Below, piece after piece: positions 346 through 6,323 of a stretch of DNA of 6,503 nucleotides. The notes beneath the pieces are model-generated. The model ran no database searches and was not told the DNA's origin. It saw only the letters and a program-made list of their open reading frames with translations. A program made the position numbers and the translations under genes. Position 1 is the first letter of the stretch. The number at the start of each line of letters is the position of its first letter. The DNA is from Candidatus Cloacimonadota bacterium (GTDB taxonomy: Bacteria > Cloacimonadota > Cloacimonadia > JGIOTU-2 > B8-G9): NCBI GenBank assembly GCA_003647765.1, contig QMNM01000088.1:1-6503 (forward strand), read 5' to 3'.

Positions 346-804
346 TTATTTTCTCTGTGTTCTTTGCGACTCCGCGGTGGATGTATTTTCCGTAAAATTC
401 ATTTTTGGTATAGCCCCTAAACTTTTTATTTGTTCAACAAATTCCTTCATAGTGTTTGCGAACTTTCTTCCTTCACTGGCAGAAATCCATTCAAGACGCA
501 AACGGTTTGGGTTAATTCCCATCTGGTCTAAATATTTCTTAAGCAAAATTACTCTTCGTTGTGTTTTATAATTTCCAGTTTGGTAATGACAGTCACCGGG
601 ATGGCAACCTCCGATAAAAACTCCATCCGCACCTTTTTTAAATGCCAACAAAATGTATTGTGGATCAACACGGGAAGAACATAATGTTTTTATTACAACC
701 CCATTTGGAGGATACTTCATTCTGGATGTTCCAGCTAAATCAGCTCCAGCATAAGTGCACCATTTGCAAAGAAAACATACTATCTTTGGTTCAAAGTCAT
801 TCAT
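346..804 (-). CDS. mvhD: MvhD-type hydrogenase/Hdr iron-sulfur (delta) subunit
   Basis: This 152-residue protein belongs to the MvhD/FlpD family, the small [2Fe-2S] subunit that carries electrons from a hydrogenase, formate dehydrogenase or similar donor to HdrA. The hallmark motifs are intact: C13-x-x-C16 followed by TYAGADLAG, RMKYPPN, C42 in LCSSRVDP, GGCHPGDCHY (C67, C72), GNYK, and RLEWISASEG near the end. The ATG is preceded by GAGAGG about seven bases upstream, and an in-frame TAA lies at 828-826, so the start is well supported. The last residues (about S142-K152, ending AESQRTQRK) are encoded by a copy of the nearby palindromic repeat and are unlikely to be ancestral; the family fold should end near SLGAIPK. 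It lies about 510 bp downstream of hdrA, with a four-helix-bundle gene between them. It probably serves one or both HdrA proteins of this operon. Confidence 0.93.
   Translation of the reverse strand: MNDFEPKIVCFLCKWCTYAGADLAGTSRMKYPPNGVVIKTLCSSRVDPQYILLAFKKGADGVFIGGCHPGDCHYQTGNYKTQRRVILLKKYLDQMGINPNRLRLEWISASEGRKFANTMKEFVEQIKSLGAIPKMNFTENTSTAESQRTQRK
351..379. repeat. Half-copy of the palindromic repeat inside the mvhD 3' end
   Basis: Positions 352-379 match the left arm of the elements at 1-136 and 205-340 exactly as that arm reads in copy A (TCTCTGTGTTCTTTGCG and so on, ending GCGGTG). Only the left arm is present; the loop and right arm are missing. On the minus strand this arm is translated as the last ten or eleven residues of the MvhD-like protein, and the stop codon lies immediately beyond it. 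The repeat therefore overlaps, and probably extends, a coding region. Confidence 0.85.
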
Positions 805-1280: not shown

Positions 1281-1322
1281 TACCCATCCACCCATTTTCC
1301 CATTTACTCATCTACTCATTCA
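1281..1322. repeat. Octamer repeat block, right flank of four-helix gene
   Basis: A run of 8-9-bp units on the plus strand: ACCCATCC, ACCCATTTT, CCCATTTA, CTCATCTA, CTCATTCA. Positions 1303-1318 match the reverse complement of the 829-844 unit at 15 of 16 bases, so this is an inverted counterpart of the block on the other side of the four-helix gene. It overlaps the hdrA stop codon (1318-1316), which lies inside one of the octamers. Confidence 0.8.
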
Positions 1323-3268
1323 TTCAATATCACATTTATCATATTATATATTTGCTTATCCGTCAGATTTTTCTGCTGAGATGCTCCAGAAGGGCAAGCA
1401 CTGATGCAAGCTCCACAACCTTCACAAAGAACATCATTCACACTAGCAATTTTTTCAATCTCATCAAATTCACGAGCGCCATAAGGGCAGGTTCCAATGC
1501 AAATTTTACATCCTGAACACAAATCTTTATCAACAGTGGCTATGATAGGGGAATGATATATTTTATCACTGGAAAGTAAAGCAAGTGCTTTTGCAGCTGC
1601 ACCGGAAGCTTGAGAAACCGAATCTGGAATATCTTTTGGTCCTTGAGAAGCACCAGCAAGATAGAATCCAGCTTGTAAGCTTTCAACAGGTCGCAATTTC
1701 GGATGTGCTTCAACTAAGAATCCAGCCTCATCTGTATTTAATTTTAATCTTTTAACTAATTCATCAGTTCCATAGCTTGGCACAATTCCCATTGCCAATA
1801 CAACCATATCTGCGGTTATCTCTATCTTTTTTCCAGAAAGTGTATCCATTCCATGAACTATCATTTTGTCGCCTTCTTTATAAATTCTGGCAACTTTACC
1901 TTTAATGTAAAGAATTTCTTCTTCTGAAACTGCTTGTTGAACAAACTCTTCGTATCTCTTACCACCTGAACGAATATCAATATAGAAAATATAAGGCTGT
2001 CCATCTGAAACTTTATGCTTGTAAAGTTTAGCGTGCTTCAGCGTATACATACAGCAGATTTTGGAGCAATAGGACAGATGTCTTTCCGGGTCTCTTGAGC
2101 CTGAACATTGTACAAAGACGATTTCTTTTGGAATTTTGCCATCGGACGGTCGTCTCATTTCTCCACCTGTTGGACCTGTTGCAGAAAGGATTCTTTCAAA
2201 TTGCAAACTTGTAATCACATCAGGATATTTTCCATAACCATATTCTGCCATATTTTCAACAGGATACAAATCATAACCAGAAGCGACAACAATTGCACCG
2301 ATTTTTTCTTCAAAAATTTCAGGTTTTGCATCGTAATTTATTGCGTCTGCTTCACATTTTTCACGACATTTTCCACAAGCAATTGGTTCAAGACCCAAAC
2401 AATTTTCAACATCAAGGGTATATGTGGCTGGAATCGCTTGTGGAAATGGAATATAGATTGCCTTGCGCCAGGATAGGCCTTCTTCTTGCTCATTTGGAAC
2501 TAAAACAGGACAGACATCAGTGCAGTCATCACATAGATTACATTTATCAGGGTCTACATACTGGGCTTTTCTTTTTATCTTTACATTGAAATTTCCAATA
2601 TATCCTTCAACTGATTCTACTTCACTATTAACATAAAGTTTGATGTTTTTATGCTTGCTGAGTTGAACCATCTTTGGAGTCAAGATGCATTGAGAGCAAT
2701 CCAATGTGGGAAATGTTTCGGAAAGTTGTATCATATGTCCACCAATGGAAGGGTTTTTTTCAACAACAGTAACCTCATATCCTGCATCAGCAATATCAAG
2801 TGCAGACTGAATTCCAGCAATGCCTGCACCGATTACCAATGCTTTTTTTGTTACAGGAGCTGATACCGGGAATAATGACTCATTGAGTTTCAACTTCTCA
2901 ATGGCAGTTTTGATAATTAGATTCGCTTTTCTTGTTGCTTCTTCTTTATTTGTATGAACCCAACTGCATTGTTCACGAATATTAGCAATTTCACATTGAT
3001 ATTGGTTTAATCCTGATTCTTCTATCACACCTTGAAATGTGGATTCATGAAGCGTAGGAGAACAAGCTGCAACAACCACAGCGTCTAAATTTTTCTTCTT
3101 AATGGCTTCTTTTATTAAATTTTGTCCAGGGTCTGAACACATAAACATATAGTTTTCAATATGTGCAACTCCTGGATAATCTGCAAGTTGCTCTGTTAAT
3201 TTTTCTACATCAACAGTATCTTTGATATTTACACCGCAGTGGCAAACAAAAACACCGATTTTTTTCAT
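1316..3268 (-). CDS. hdrA: HdrA, stand-alone heterodisulfide reductase subunit A
   Basis: A 650-residue HdrA, the cytoplasmic FAD/iron-sulfur subunit that performs flavin-based electron bifurcation or confurcation in Hdr-type complexes. The N-terminal domain (1-135) has VCHCG (C9, C11), MCSDPGQ (C44), C69, C92 and C101. The FAD domain begins with GAGIAGIQ at 147-154, then VEKNPSIGGHM and LDCSQC (C191, C194). An inserted ferredoxin domain follows: C243, C246, C249, C253 and then C290, C298, C301, C305. YCSKICCMYT lies in the second half of the FAD domain. The C terminus is a 2[4Fe-4S] ferredoxin with C584, C587, C590, C594 and C615, C618, C621, C625. Length and architecture are those of a full HdrA. 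The ATG has a strong AGAGGA site. It aligns without gaps to the HdrA part of the upstream gene, so the pair arose by duplication. The stop codon sits inside an octamer repeat. No HdrB or HdrC is visible. Confidence 0.96.
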   Translation of the reverse strand: MKKIGVFVCHCGVNIKDTVDVEKLTEQLADYPGVAHIENYMFMCSDPGQNLIKEAIKKKNLDAVVVAACSPTLHESTFQGVIEESGLNQYQCEIANIREQCSWVHTNKEEATRKANLIIKTAIEKLKLNESLFPVSAPVTKKALVIGAGIAGIQSALDIADAGYEVTVVEKNPSIGGHMIQLSETFPTLDCSQCILTPKMVQLSKHKNIKLYVNSEVESVEGYIGNFNVKIKRKAQYVDPDKCNLCDDCTDVCPVLVPNEQEEGLSWRKAIYIPFPQAIPATYTLDVENCLGLEPIACGKCREKCEADAINYDAKPEIFEEKIGAIVVASGYDLYPVENMAEYGYGKYPDVITSLQFERILSATGPTGGEMRRPSDGKIPKEIVFVQCSGSRDPERHLSYCSKICCMYTLKHAKLYKHKVSDGQPYIFYIDIRSGGKRYEEFVQQAVSEEEILYIKGKVARIYKEGDKMIVHGMDTLSGKKIEITADMVVLAMGIVPSYGTDELVKRLKLNTDEAGFLVEAHPKLRPVESLQAGFYLAGASQGPKDIPDSVSQASGAAAKALALLSSDKIYHSPIIATVDKDLCSGCKICIGTCPYGAREFDEIEKIASVNDVLCEGCGACISACPSGASQQKNLTDKQIYNMINVILNE

Positions 3269-3278
3269 TTTTCCTCTA
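3269..3278 (-). promoter_or_regulatory. Shine-Dalgarno overlapping upstream stop (coupling site)
   Basis: On the minus strand the upstream gene ends in TAG, which runs directly into GAGGAAAA and then the ATG of the second hdrA. The ribosome-binding site therefore shares bases with the stop codon, and the intergenic gap is only 7 bp. This arrangement usually gives translational coupling, which would help keep the two HdrA proteins in fixed ratio. Confidence 0.75.
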
Positions 3279-5669
3279 ATTTAATGATTCCCATCTCTTT
3301 GACTGGACTGGACCCTGCTCTTTAAGATATTTAACAAATGTATCAATAAAACCAGCGAATCCTTTTGCTTGCCTGCCTGCATACCATTCTAATTTTATTC
3401 TTTCAGGATTTAGTCCAGCATCTTTTATTTTCTTTTTAAGAGCATTTACTCTTTCTTTTGTTTTCTTACTCGCTCCGGGATAAGGAGATTCGCCAGGATG
3501 ACTTCCACTTATCAGCACACCATCAGCCCCATTTTTTATTGCATATAAAATATGTTTGTCGTCTAACATTGAAATTGAAAGAAGTCTAATTATTAGAGCA
3601 TTTGGTTTATATTCCATTCTTCCGATACCAGCAAGGTCTGCTGCCTGATAAGCACCAATATTACTAAAAAAGCACACAATTTTTGGCTCAAATTCTTTAC
3701 TTTTTACAACCTTCTTATCCTTTCCTAATATAGCATCTATCATATTATAAATTTGCTGGTCAGAGAGGTTCTTTTGCTCTAATGCATCTTCAGGACATTC
3801 CGGAATGCAAAAGCCACATCCTTTACATTTCATTTCATCAATGACAGCGATATTTTGAACTTCATCAATAGTAATTGCATCAAAAGGACATTTCTCAATA
3901 CAATCTCCACAGCCATTGCATTTTTTATCATTAACTTTTACAACAACTGGCGATTTTTCTATAGTATCATGAGCCAATAATGATAACGCTTTTGAAGCCG
4001 CGCCAGAAGCCTGTGCAACAGTTTCAGGTATATCTTTTGGTGCCTGACATGTTCCGGCAAGGAAAAATCCAGGATTAACAGTTTCTACTGGTCGTAATTT
4101 AGGATGTGCTTCTGTCAGAAATCCTGATGTTCCTTCTGAAAGATTAAGTTTTCTTGCCAGTTCATCAGTTCCAAAACTTGGTATCATTCCTAATGCGAGA
4201 ACTACCATATCCACTTTGGCTTCAATTTTTTTGCCGGAGAGAGTGTCAAAAGCATTGATAATCATTTTATCATTTTCTTTATAAATACGGGATACCTTAC
4301 CTCGGATATAAACTAACTTTTGCTCCAATTGTGCTGTTTGGATAAACTCTTCATAATCTTTTCCAGTTGCTCTAATATCAATATAAAAGATATATGCCTG
4401 TCCATCTGGCACCTTATTTTTAAACATTTTTGCCTGTTTTGATGTATACATACAGCAGATTTTTGAACAATGAGAAAGATGTCTTTCCGGGTCTCGTGAG
4501 CCAGCACATTGAACAAAAGCAATTTCCTTTACCGGCTTTCCATCGGATGGTCGTAACATTTTTCCACCTGATGGACCAACAGCAAAGATAAGCCTTTCAA
4601 ATTGCAGTCCACTAACAACATCCGGATATTTTCCATAACCATATTCTCCAATATTTTCCATAGGATATAAATCATATCCAGTTGCAACTATTACTGCTCC
4701 AACATTTTTTTCCATAGTTTCATCTTTTGCATCATAATTGATAGCACCTTCCTTACAGGCATCTTTGCATTTTCCACAAGCAATTGGGTTTAATCCCAAA
4801 CAATTATCAATATCCAATGTATATGTATATGGAATCACTTGTGGAAACGACATATAAACTGCCTTACGATATGAAAGCCCTTCCTCGTATTCATCCGGAA
4901 CAAGTACAGGACAAACATCTACACAATCTCCGCAGCCAGTGCATATTTCTGGGTTAATATATTGTGCTTTTCTTTTAATTTTGACCTTAAAATTACCCAC
5001 AGCACCGTCAATTGATTCTATTTCGCTATTAACGAAGAGGTCAATATTCTCGTTCTGGTCAACTTGAACCATTTTAGGAGTCAGAATACATTGTGAACAA
5101 TCAAGTGTTGGAAAGGTTACTGATAATTGAATCATATGCCCACCAATGTATGGTCTCTTTTCCACTAAAAAAACTTTATGCCCTGCATCAGCAATGTCCA
5201 ATGCCGCCTGAATCCCTGCAATTCCAGCACCTATTACTAATACATTCTTATTTGTTGGTGAAGATATTGGATATAGTGATTCATTCAATTTCAGCTTTTC
5301 AATCATAGATTTTATGATAAGAATCGCTTTTTTTGTAGCCTGTTCTCTATTAGAATGAACCCAACTGCATTGCTCTCTGATATTGGCTATTTCACATTGA
5401 TATGGATTTAATCCAGCAGATGCGGCCGCTTTCCTGAAAGTTGCTTCATGCATTGTGGGTGAACAACTTGCTACAATTACCCCATCCAATTTTTTCTCTT
5501 TTATTGCATCCTTTATCATTTTCTGCCCGGGGTCAGAACACATAAAAGTATAATCAGTGCTATAGATAACGCCGCTATAATTGCCGATTTCTTTGGCAAC
5601 CCTCTCCACATCCACTGTATCAGCAATATTTTCGCCACAATGGCAAATAAAAACTCCGATTCTTTTCAT
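3276..5669 (-). CDS. hdrA: HdrA fused to a cysteine-less MvhD-like domain
   Basis: A 797-residue fusion. Residues 1-650 are a complete HdrA: CHCG at 9-12, MCSDPGQ at 43-49, GAGIAGIQ (FAD) at 147-154, LDCSQC, the inserted ferredoxin beginning ICTGCGDCVDVCP (C243 onward), HCSKICCMYT, and two C-terminal clusters (CNGCGDCIEKCP, CKGCGFCIPECP). After a lysine-rich linker (about 649-659) comes an MvhD-like domain, from FEPKIVCFF at 660 to about 785. HdrA-MvhD fusions are known, for example in Methanosarcina HdrA2, and QmoB of sulfate reducers has a related plan. Unusually, the MvhD cysteines are gone: positions matching C13, C16, C42, C67 and C72 of the free MvhD are S669, G672, S698, S723 and S728. 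This domain cannot bind the usual [2Fe-2S] cluster through those ligands. The ATG has AAGAGG five bases upstream. It is the first hdr gene of the operon seen here. Confidence 0.95.
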   Translation of the reverse strand: MKRIGVFICHCGENIADTVDVERVAKEIGNYSGVIYSTDYTFMCSDPGQKMIKDAIKEKKLDGVIVASCSPTMHEATFRKAAASAGLNPYQCEIANIREQCSWVHSNREQATKKAILIIKSMIEKLKLNESLYPISSPTNKNVLVIGAGIAGIQAALDIADAGHKVFLVEKRPYIGGHMIQLSVTFPTLDCSQCILTPKMVQVDQNENIDLFVNSEIESIDGAVGNFKVKIKRKAQYINPEICTGCGDCVDVCPVLVPDEYEEGLSYRKAVYMSFPQVIPYTYTLDIDNCLGLNPIACGKCKDACKEGAINYDAKDETMEKNVGAVIVATGYDLYPMENIGEYGYGKYPDVVSGLQFERLIFAVGPSGGKMLRPSDGKPVKEIAFVQCAGSRDPERHLSHCSKICCMYTSKQAKMFKNKVPDGQAYIFYIDIRATGKDYEEFIQTAQLEQKLVYIRGKVSRIYKENDKMIINAFDTLSGKKIEAKVDMVVLALGMIPSFGTDELARKLNLSEGTSGFLTEAHPKLRPVETVNPGFFLAGTCQAPKDIPETVAQASGAASKALSLLAHDTIEKSPVVVKVNDKKCNGCGDCIEKCPFDAITIDEVQNIAVIDEMKCKGCGFCIPECPEDALEQKNLSDQQIYNMIDAILGKDKKVVKSKEFEPKIVCFFSNIGAYQAADLAGIGRMEYKPNALIIRLLSISMLDDKHILYAIKNGADGVLISGSHPGESPYPGASKKTKERVNALKKKIKDAGLNPERIKLEWYAGRQAKGFAGFIDTFVKYLKEQGPVQSKRWESLN

Positions 5670-5856: not shown

Positions 5857-5897
5857 TTTTAATCTTTTAGCGATTCTTCGCGTCCTTCGTGGCTTAT
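5857..5897 (+). repeat. Diverged copy of the AATCTTT...GTGGC repeat at GxxExxY 3' end
   Basis: Reads on the plus strand from TTTTAATCTTTTAGCGATT (5857-5875) through CTTCGCGTCCTTCGTGGC to an AT stretch. It aligns with the first 46-bp unit read on the minus strand, which also begins TTTTAATCTTT (5726-5716) and ends GGTGGCTAAATAT. On the minus strand it encodes the last 12-13 residues of the GxxExxY protein (SHEGREESLKD) and its stop codon. Its first 19 bp recur exactly at 6356-6374. Confidence 0.75.
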
Positions 5898-6323
5898 ATC
5901 ATCCTTTTTGTTTTCAATAAATGTTCTGATATATCTTCTCCATTCCAATTTTTCATGACTACCAAAATTAATTAATATTCCAACTTTCATTCCTGTTGCC
6001 TTTAAATAATTTATTATCTGAGCTTCTTCTACTTTTGTTAATTTAGGGATACACTTAAATTCAACTATGATTTTGCCATATCCAATGTAATCAGCGATAA
6101 ACTCTTTTTTTAATTTTTGGTTTTTATAGTAAACAGGTATCTTAACTTGCGTTTCGTATGGTATCTGTCTTTTACTTGATTCAATTACCATTGCTTCTTC
6201 ATAGACCGATTCTAAGAATCCAGGGCCAAGTTCTTTATGTATTTCAATTGCAGCACCTATTATTCTGTAGACTTCTTTCGCATATAACAAATCTTTGTTC
6301 ACTTTTTTAGCCTTCCTTCTCAT
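5859..6323 (-). CDS. GxxExxY-family protein (PD-(D/E)XK nuclease-like)
   Basis: A 154-residue member of the GxxExxY family, a small PD-(D/E)XK nuclease-like fold that is widespread and of unproven function. Visible signatures are AAIEIHKELGPGFLESVYEEAM (the name motif is GFLESVY), a mid-protein EFIADYIG and IVEFKC supplying candidate D and E-x-K residues, then INYLKATGMKVGILINFG and EWRRYIRTF near the end. There is no signal or membrane segment. The annotated ATG has AAGGAAGG directly upstream with short spacing. A GTG at 6302-6300 (eighth codon) has AGAAGGAAGG about eight bases upstream and is a plausible alternative start. The C terminus past about residue 141 is encoded by a repeat element and is probably not part of the fold. 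The gene sits between two arrays of the same 46-bp repeat, is separate from the hdr operon in theme, and looks like an inserted accessory gene. Confidence 0.92.
   Translation of the reverse strand: MRRKAKKVNKDLLYAKEVYRIIGAAIEIHKELGPGFLESVYEEAMVIESSKRQIPYETQVKIPVYYKNQKLKKEFIADYIGYGKIIVEFKCIPKLTKVEEAQIINYLKATGMKVGILINFGSHEKLEWRRYIRTFIENKKDDISHEGREESLKD

Follow-up and report, generated by a model that had tools for sequence, protein, structure and literature searches.

Why would an operon that encodes an intact MvhD also encode an HdrA fused to a second MvhD-like domain from which every cluster cysteine has gone? The question is raised by the window, by which is meant the whole 6503-bp contig of a Cloacimonadota metagenome-assembled genome (MAG; all genomes compared are MAGs), placed in this phylum through L053 and L055, near relatives that carry names. 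On its minus strand the ORFs follow the order fusion, HdrA, MvhD:

5669 to 3276, minus strand: HdrA-FlpD fusion, type A, with a cysteine-less FlpD, 797 residues (ORF, NF040770, PF02662, AlphaFold2)
3300 to 3698, minus strand: fused FlpD/MvhD-like domain, residues about 658-790, ligands lost (PF02662, AlphaFold2, Foldseek, dN/dS)
1316 to 3268, minus strand: HdrA, unfused paralogue, 650 residues, its core the sister group of type A fusions (ORF, tree)
346 to 804, minus strand: free MvhD, five cysteines intact (ORF, profile match)

In the fusion chain an MvhD domain is joined to the C-terminal end of HdrA, which is the HdrA2-type architecture. PF02662 matches residues 664-784 of it with 112 bits (cut-off 22.3) and the free MvhD with 184 bits. 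When the fused domain and the free MvhD are aligned over their full lengths, another residue stands at each of the five cysteine positions:

3663 to 3665, minus strand: S669 (AGT), in place of ligand C13 (alignment with the free MvhD)
3654 to 3656, minus strand: G672 (GGT), in place of C16, which the family can do without (alignment, family survey)
3576 to 3578, minus strand: S698 (TCA), in place of ligand C42 (alignment with the free MvhD)
3501 to 3503, minus strand: S723 (AGT), in place of ligand C67 (alignment with the free MvhD)
3486 to 3488, minus strand: S728 (TCT), in place of ligand C72 (alignment with the free MvhD)

An earlier note on this DNA had described these five substitutions, and both the alignment and the codons bear it out. 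It was also right that the operon's free MvhD keeps all five cysteines (TGC or TGT at each, within the motifs CxxC, LCSSR and GCHPGDC) and that the flanking motifs DLAG, RMEYKPN, GADGV, HPG and LEW are preserved in the fused domain.

The pattern S-G-S-S-S recurs in all six orthologues found (G000, which is the window genome, G002, G012, G010, G011 and G126), and these represent three Cloacimonadota family groups. Among those aligned, domain identity to the window falls as low as 69%, and the serine codons differ synonymously between orthologues (AGT/AGC, TCT/TCA). A sequencing error or frame artefact is ruled out by identical residues in six assemblies and by normal codons. The loss extends beyond the cysteines. 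W19, D75, H77, N82, S112, A113, E115 and G116 (domain numbering), which are residues of the cluster pocket and of the 'WISASEG' stretch, are gone as well. The fusion retains the residue in 16 of the 30 columns with at least 90% conservation among FlpD proteins. The other 14 have been lost, and they include all five cysteine columns, for which p = 0.014 when taken alone. The fixation of S-G-S-S-S in six orthologues, together with a low dN/dS, is stronger evidence than this p value.

How general is the loss? A first survey took in 125 FlpD domains, drawn from many lineages of bacteria and archaea, with a few domains counted twice where loci overlapped. Free FlpD/MvhD proteins have five of five cysteines in 84 cases and four of five in nine, and in those nine (9/93) the missing one is always C2. 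Among the fusions, 16 have all five, 12 have none and four have two. Those with five include Methanolobus and Methanothrix fusions. Beyond this survey, fusions of Asgard, Bathyarchaeota, Chloroflexota, Rhodospirillaceae, Thermodesulfobacteriota and further lineages likewise have all five. Five QmoB-type sequences show C-D-C-C-C; in three genomes (L136, L137, L138) they follow AprB, and two are related fusions (L186, L188). Since C2 is missing from nine free MvhDs and from all QmoB-type sequences, it is dispensable, and C1, C3, C4 and C5 form the conserved ligand set. A [2Fe-2S] cluster requires four ligands. The real loss in the window is therefore that of C13, C42, C67 and C72, and the earlier view of all five cysteines as ligands stands for these four and is unlikely to hold for C16. 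Scored against MvhD, HdrA2-type and QmoB domains, as the note had proposed, loss of the ligand set is confined among the sequences sampled to Cloacimonadota fusions and one bacterial MAG of unassigned phylum (L121, G172). As a side observation, many free MvhD genes of family f4 (e.g., G065:C80, G072:C101, G063:C165) contain one in-frame TGA, which suggests that a selenocysteine-containing MvhD may exist in Cloacimonadota.

The fused domain thus has cysteines at none of the five positions, and at none of the four in the ligand set. Substitute ligands were looked for within it. The sole remaining cysteine is C666 (counterpart of C10 in the free MvhD), so there is no alternative four-ligand site in the domain. 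Nevertheless, the domain is maintained. Pairwise dN/dS is 0.04-0.17 for it and 0.03-0.08 for the HdrA part, which argues that it is functional, though under weaker constraint than the HdrA part in wider comparisons. AlphaFold2 models it with a pLDDT of 88.5 and a pTM of 0.83, from an alignment dominated by cysteine-bearing MvhDs, which makes the model no independent test of the fold; the full-length fusion reaches a pLDDT of 87.8. Foldseek matches in the PDB with E of at most 0.001 are all MvhD-type chains (5odc_D, 5odh_D, 8rvu_F, 7bkb_F), and the predicted domain superposes on solved MvhD and ElpC chains with TM scores of 0.86-0.97. The fused domain is accordingly predicted to keep the MvhD fold. 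Judged by its residues, it appears to be without a [2Fe-2S] cluster, and this is well supported. It is likewise well supported that MvhD-type electron transfer would be absent from it, because all ligands are gone, there are no substitutes, and fold and purifying selection are kept.

The HdrA part tells a different story. The cluster cysteines, E358 and K411 are invariant when the fusion is aligned with other HdrAs (numbering via the 5odc alignment; the two residues correspond to FAD-site E356 and K409 of 5ODC). Every Fe-S and bifurcation residue checked there is intact, as the earlier note had stated for the Fe-S motifs. In its FAD-site Glu and Lys and its cluster cysteines the fusion therefore has the residues expected of a bifurcating HdrA.

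Several known systems resemble the fusion. The first is HdrA2, or type Ia (Methanosarcina HdrA2B2C2), with which it shares a single chain of HdrA and C-terminal MvhD and intact FAD and ferredoxin domains. However, the MvhD domain of Methanosarcina HdrA2 reportedly holds one Fe2S2, and HdrA-MvhD fusions are described as cluster-bearing (PMC5296606, PMC12054007). Identity with HdrA2 was rejected on three grounds: the NF040770 HdrA2 model scores 924 bits, below its curated cut-off of 1100; common descent of the fusion with HdrA2 is lacking; and there is no cluster-bearing MvhD domain. The second is QmoB of the Qmo complex, which also combines an HdrA-like part with a C-terminal FlpD domain. Here too identity was rejected, since the window has neither the C-D-C-C-C FlpD, nor a shortened HdrA (the fusion's is full length), nor the aprBA-qmoA context. 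The third is the group of MvhD, FlpD and ElpC in the Mvh-Hdr, Fdh-Hdr and Elp-Hdr complexes (5ODC, 7BKB, 8RVU). The likeness lies in the predicted fold, but the fused domain is without cluster ligands and is joined to HdrA instead of forming a separate subunit.

The cysteine-poor fusions are of two types. Type B, found in about 20 Cloacimonadota genomes, shares roughly 38-45% identity with the window fusion and has D-T-S-S-S or D-C-S-C-S at the cysteine positions. Its HdrA core falls into the HdrA2-like fusion clade. That of the window fusion lies outside this clade, the type A core being sister to unfused Cloacimonadota HdrA (support 100/100). On the HdrA core a single origin is rejected both for all cysteine-poor fusions (p-AU 5e-6) and for all fusions (p-AU 1.6e-5). 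The FlpD tree groups A with B (support 79/89), and a grouping of A with Cloacimonadota MvhD fits equally well (p-AU 0.56). The domain is short and divergent, and one loss with domain exchange fits as well as two losses do. Because the FlpD tree is indecisive, the claim of two origins extends to the HdrA lineages and not to the cysteine loss.

How such a fusion might arise is hinted at in G003, G006, G007 and G091. Search hits there looked like 60%-identity fusions and were rejected as such, for each consists of two genes, HdrA and an intact MvhD, with an in-frame stop codon between them, just ahead of MvhD, through which the search reads. Loss of such a stop codon could yield an HdrA-MvhD fusion in one step. 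Another genome, G008, has an HdrA and an HdrA-FlpD fusion in tandem (L040:8047-13081) that are near-identical over the first ~540 residues and different beyond. This suggests a recent duplication, gene conversion or an assembly artefact, and with it that domain exchange or conversion may occur in the HdrA-FlpD family. Finally, the fusion genes of G126 (L149) and G010 (L035), which belong to two families, are 88.6% identical and their operon neighbours 62-75%, which suggests that the type A gene may have been transferred singly between families.

The next clue is operon content. The intact operon of G010 and G011 reads Kor-HdrC-HdrB-fusion-HdrA-MvhD-TfrB-TfrA-MvhG-MvhA-protease. The same cluster without the fusion occurs in G004, G006, G007 and G009, and within contig reach in G003 and G091. 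In the available part of the report on Ca. Celaenobacter, a Kor-Hdr-Mvh-Tfr cluster is tied to an H2-driven reverse TCA cycle (PMC8542988). Operon type and phylum are the same as here; that part of the account names Hdr, Mvh, TFR and OGOR and mentions neither an extra fusion gene nor cysteine loss. In the window genome TfrB-TfrA-MvhG lie on contig C146, with about 90% DNA identity to G002. This is consistent with the same operon, and misbinning of the window contig was rejected on that basis.

G002 itself, a 96%-complete MAG, is instructive. Its operon reads HdrC-HdrB-fusion-TfrB-TfrA-MvhG-MvhA. Neither a further HdrA nor a free MvhD is encoded in the genome, which leaves the fusion as the only HdrA and FlpD of the operon. 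The HdrA-HdrA-MvhD assembly that the earlier note implied is thus not a necessity. The MvhG gene of this operon (hydrogenase small subunit, L033:13344-14345) contains an in-frame CAG>TAG nonsense codon, the ancestral CAG being deduced from Gln in G010. Type B operons comprise HdrA-FlpD, HdrC and HdrB, often with TfrB and TfrA. MvhD and MvhGA are missing from them, the exceptions being G008 and G118, both of which have an additional unfused HdrA. MvhA is present in 5/19 type B genomes versus 18/22 FlpD genomes without a fusion (p = 5e-4, Fisher, shared ancestry ignored), and in 4/12 versus 11/13 among genomes at least 90% complete (p = 0.015, Fisher, shared ancestry again ignored). Those MvhA-positive type B genomes whose Hdr operons were read also have an unfused HdrA. 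TfrA is common in both groups alike.

What might a cluster-less FlpD do? In solved Hdr complexes an MvhD-type subunit and the N- and C-terminal domains of HdrA form a mobile arm, and as this arm moves, HA3, the C-terminal cluster, travels between FAD and ferredoxin branch; electrons from the [2Fe-2S] of the MvhD-type subunit are proposed to go to the FAD of the partner HdrA protomer (PMC12350162). We favour, at about an even chance (roughly 0.5), the reading that the fusion represents an HdrA isoform uncoupled from hydrogenase, with FlpD persisting as a structural element of this arm. It is favoured because loss of the cluster from a domain that stays in place would shut the port for hydrogenase electrons yet spare the arm movement, and because the other HdrA cofactor residues that were checked are intact. 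HdrA and FlpD would first have been joined in one chain, and the FlpD part would then have lost its [2Fe-2S] while its fold was retained as a piece of the arm, if the arm of the solved complexes (PMC12350162) survives in the fusion. Electrons from MvhAG would have no entry into this HdrA. A complex of HdrA-FlpD, HdrBC and the thiol:fumarate-reductase-like TfrAB would then connect just two sides, that of ferredoxin (Kor, other ferredoxin enzymes) and that of HdrB/Tfr. Alternatively, ferredoxin or another soluble donor might give electrons directly at the FAD of the fusion. Where HdrA, intact MvhD and MvhAG are also encoded, operon content suggests that the two HdrAs may be H2-coupled and H2-uncoupled alternatives sharing HdrBC and TfrAB.

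Two findings sit uneasily with an uncoupled isoform. One is that the window genome has an intact MvhD beside the fusion, and MvhG and TfrBA on C146; function there could require both HdrAs. The other is that the N-terminal HdrA clusters, which as a rule feed MvhD, are retained. Together with the proposed loss they would form a dead end for H2-derived electrons.

What if the two neighbouring HdrAs work as a pair? In this main rival to the uncoupled isoform the fusion and the adjoining HdrA form an asymmetric heterodimer. Free MvhD on one arm would feed the FAD of the partner and the dead FlpD would fill the other arm, so that half of the complex is hydrogenase-fed. The arrangement accords with MvhD feeding the opposite HdrA protomer in solved complexes (PMC12350162) and with the tandem HdrA heterodimers proposed for ANME archaea (PMC9012536). 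Moreover, the fusion adjoins HdrA in one operon with a single HdrB, HdrC and MvhD in G010, G011 and G126, and adjoins it within contig reach in G000 and G012. However, G002 and most type B genomes have a cysteine-poor fusion with no adjoining unfused HdrA. Nor do the two HdrAs show what marks the proposed ANME pairs, in which Cys197 (the trans cysteine) or terminal domains are lost in a complementary way: the CSQC motif (C194 = Cys197) and the terminal cluster domains are present in both window proteins. An obligate heterodimer by complementary loss was rejected for this reason, and the heterodimer in general is considered rather unlikely.

The earlier note had concluded that the domain serves docking and not electron transfer. 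The second half of this holds for MvhD-type transfer. Docking is just one option, and a structural arm is at least as likely. A dead FlpD could bind MvhAG or another MvhD partner, recruiting it or competing for it, with no passage of electrons. The motifs outside the cluster pocket are indeed kept, and competition of MvhAG and Fdh for MvhD has been reported (PMC6085437). Against this, the search found no cysteine-intact FlpD to compete against in G001 (99% complete), G002 (96%) or G032 (96%), and MvhA is missing from most type B genomes, which makes a docking module or decoy quite unlikely.

Still less probable is a degenerating relic with no present role. Decay of the cluster-pocket and WISASEG residues would suit it, as would the two of five cysteines in some type B copies, which resemble stepwise loss. 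A relic already appears disfavoured on the dN/dS values, read beside those of the HdrA part; in addition, the domain is intact in all type A copies and its predicted fold is confident. There is only a very slight chance that the four ligand-position serines bind a metal or another cofactor: serine does occupy exactly those four positions in six orthologues, with codons changed synonymously, but in type B some of them are taken by Asp, Thr or Cys, Cys to Ser is near-isosteric and often a single-base change, and we know of no all-serine Fe-S site.

To return to the hydrogenase-uncoupled isoform, it may have a wider counterpart. Tentatively, and with somewhat less than even odds, there may be an HdrA subclass that dispenses with the middle-potential entry of the bifurcating enzyme and keeps the arm, its MvhD surviving without the cluster as a mechanical component. 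It would have arisen on two Cloacimonadota HdrA lineages, both beside fumarate reductase genes, and would form an Hdr-Tfr complex without hydrogenase. HdrA-MvhD fusions are well known; for the cysteine-less form, no description of a cysteine-less MvhD or FlpD turned up in a literature search that covered few subscription papers. The nearest parallel is ElpA and the Mo-free 'Molybdop' proteins near Hdr (PMC12350162, PMC12054007), which are likewise Hdr-complex subunits that keep their fold after loss of a cofactor site. The cofactor differs, these FdhA homologues having lost molybdopterin and the fused MvhD [2Fe-2S].

The route of electrons from MvhD to the bifurcating FAD, and the effect of arm movement, have been described as operating via an unknown mechanism (PMC12350162). 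A natural HdrA with the arm but without its cluster would offer a ready-made separation of the mechanical and redox roles of the arm. It also bears on H2-independent fumarate reduction and 2-oxoglutarate synthesis in Cloacimonadota of the rTCA type. For annotation, the label 'HdrA-MvhD fusion' is no guarantee of MvhD-type electron transfer.

The remainder of the window holds two small genes and repeats. The one at 885-1241, between HdrA and MvhD, encodes a protein of the 23S rRNA intervening-sequence family; the one at 5859-6323, upstream of the fusion, encodes a PDDEXK_3 protein. Similar small genes stand elsewhere in the operon of relatives (L033:7130-7573, L035:16094-16513), as if mobile. 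Both ends of the contig (1-350 and 5690-6503) are built of short interspersed repeats, e.g., tttagccaccaagaacactaagaaacacg, and short multi-copy stretches like these are found across G002 and G012. The end repeats probably account for the termination of the contig at the window edges.
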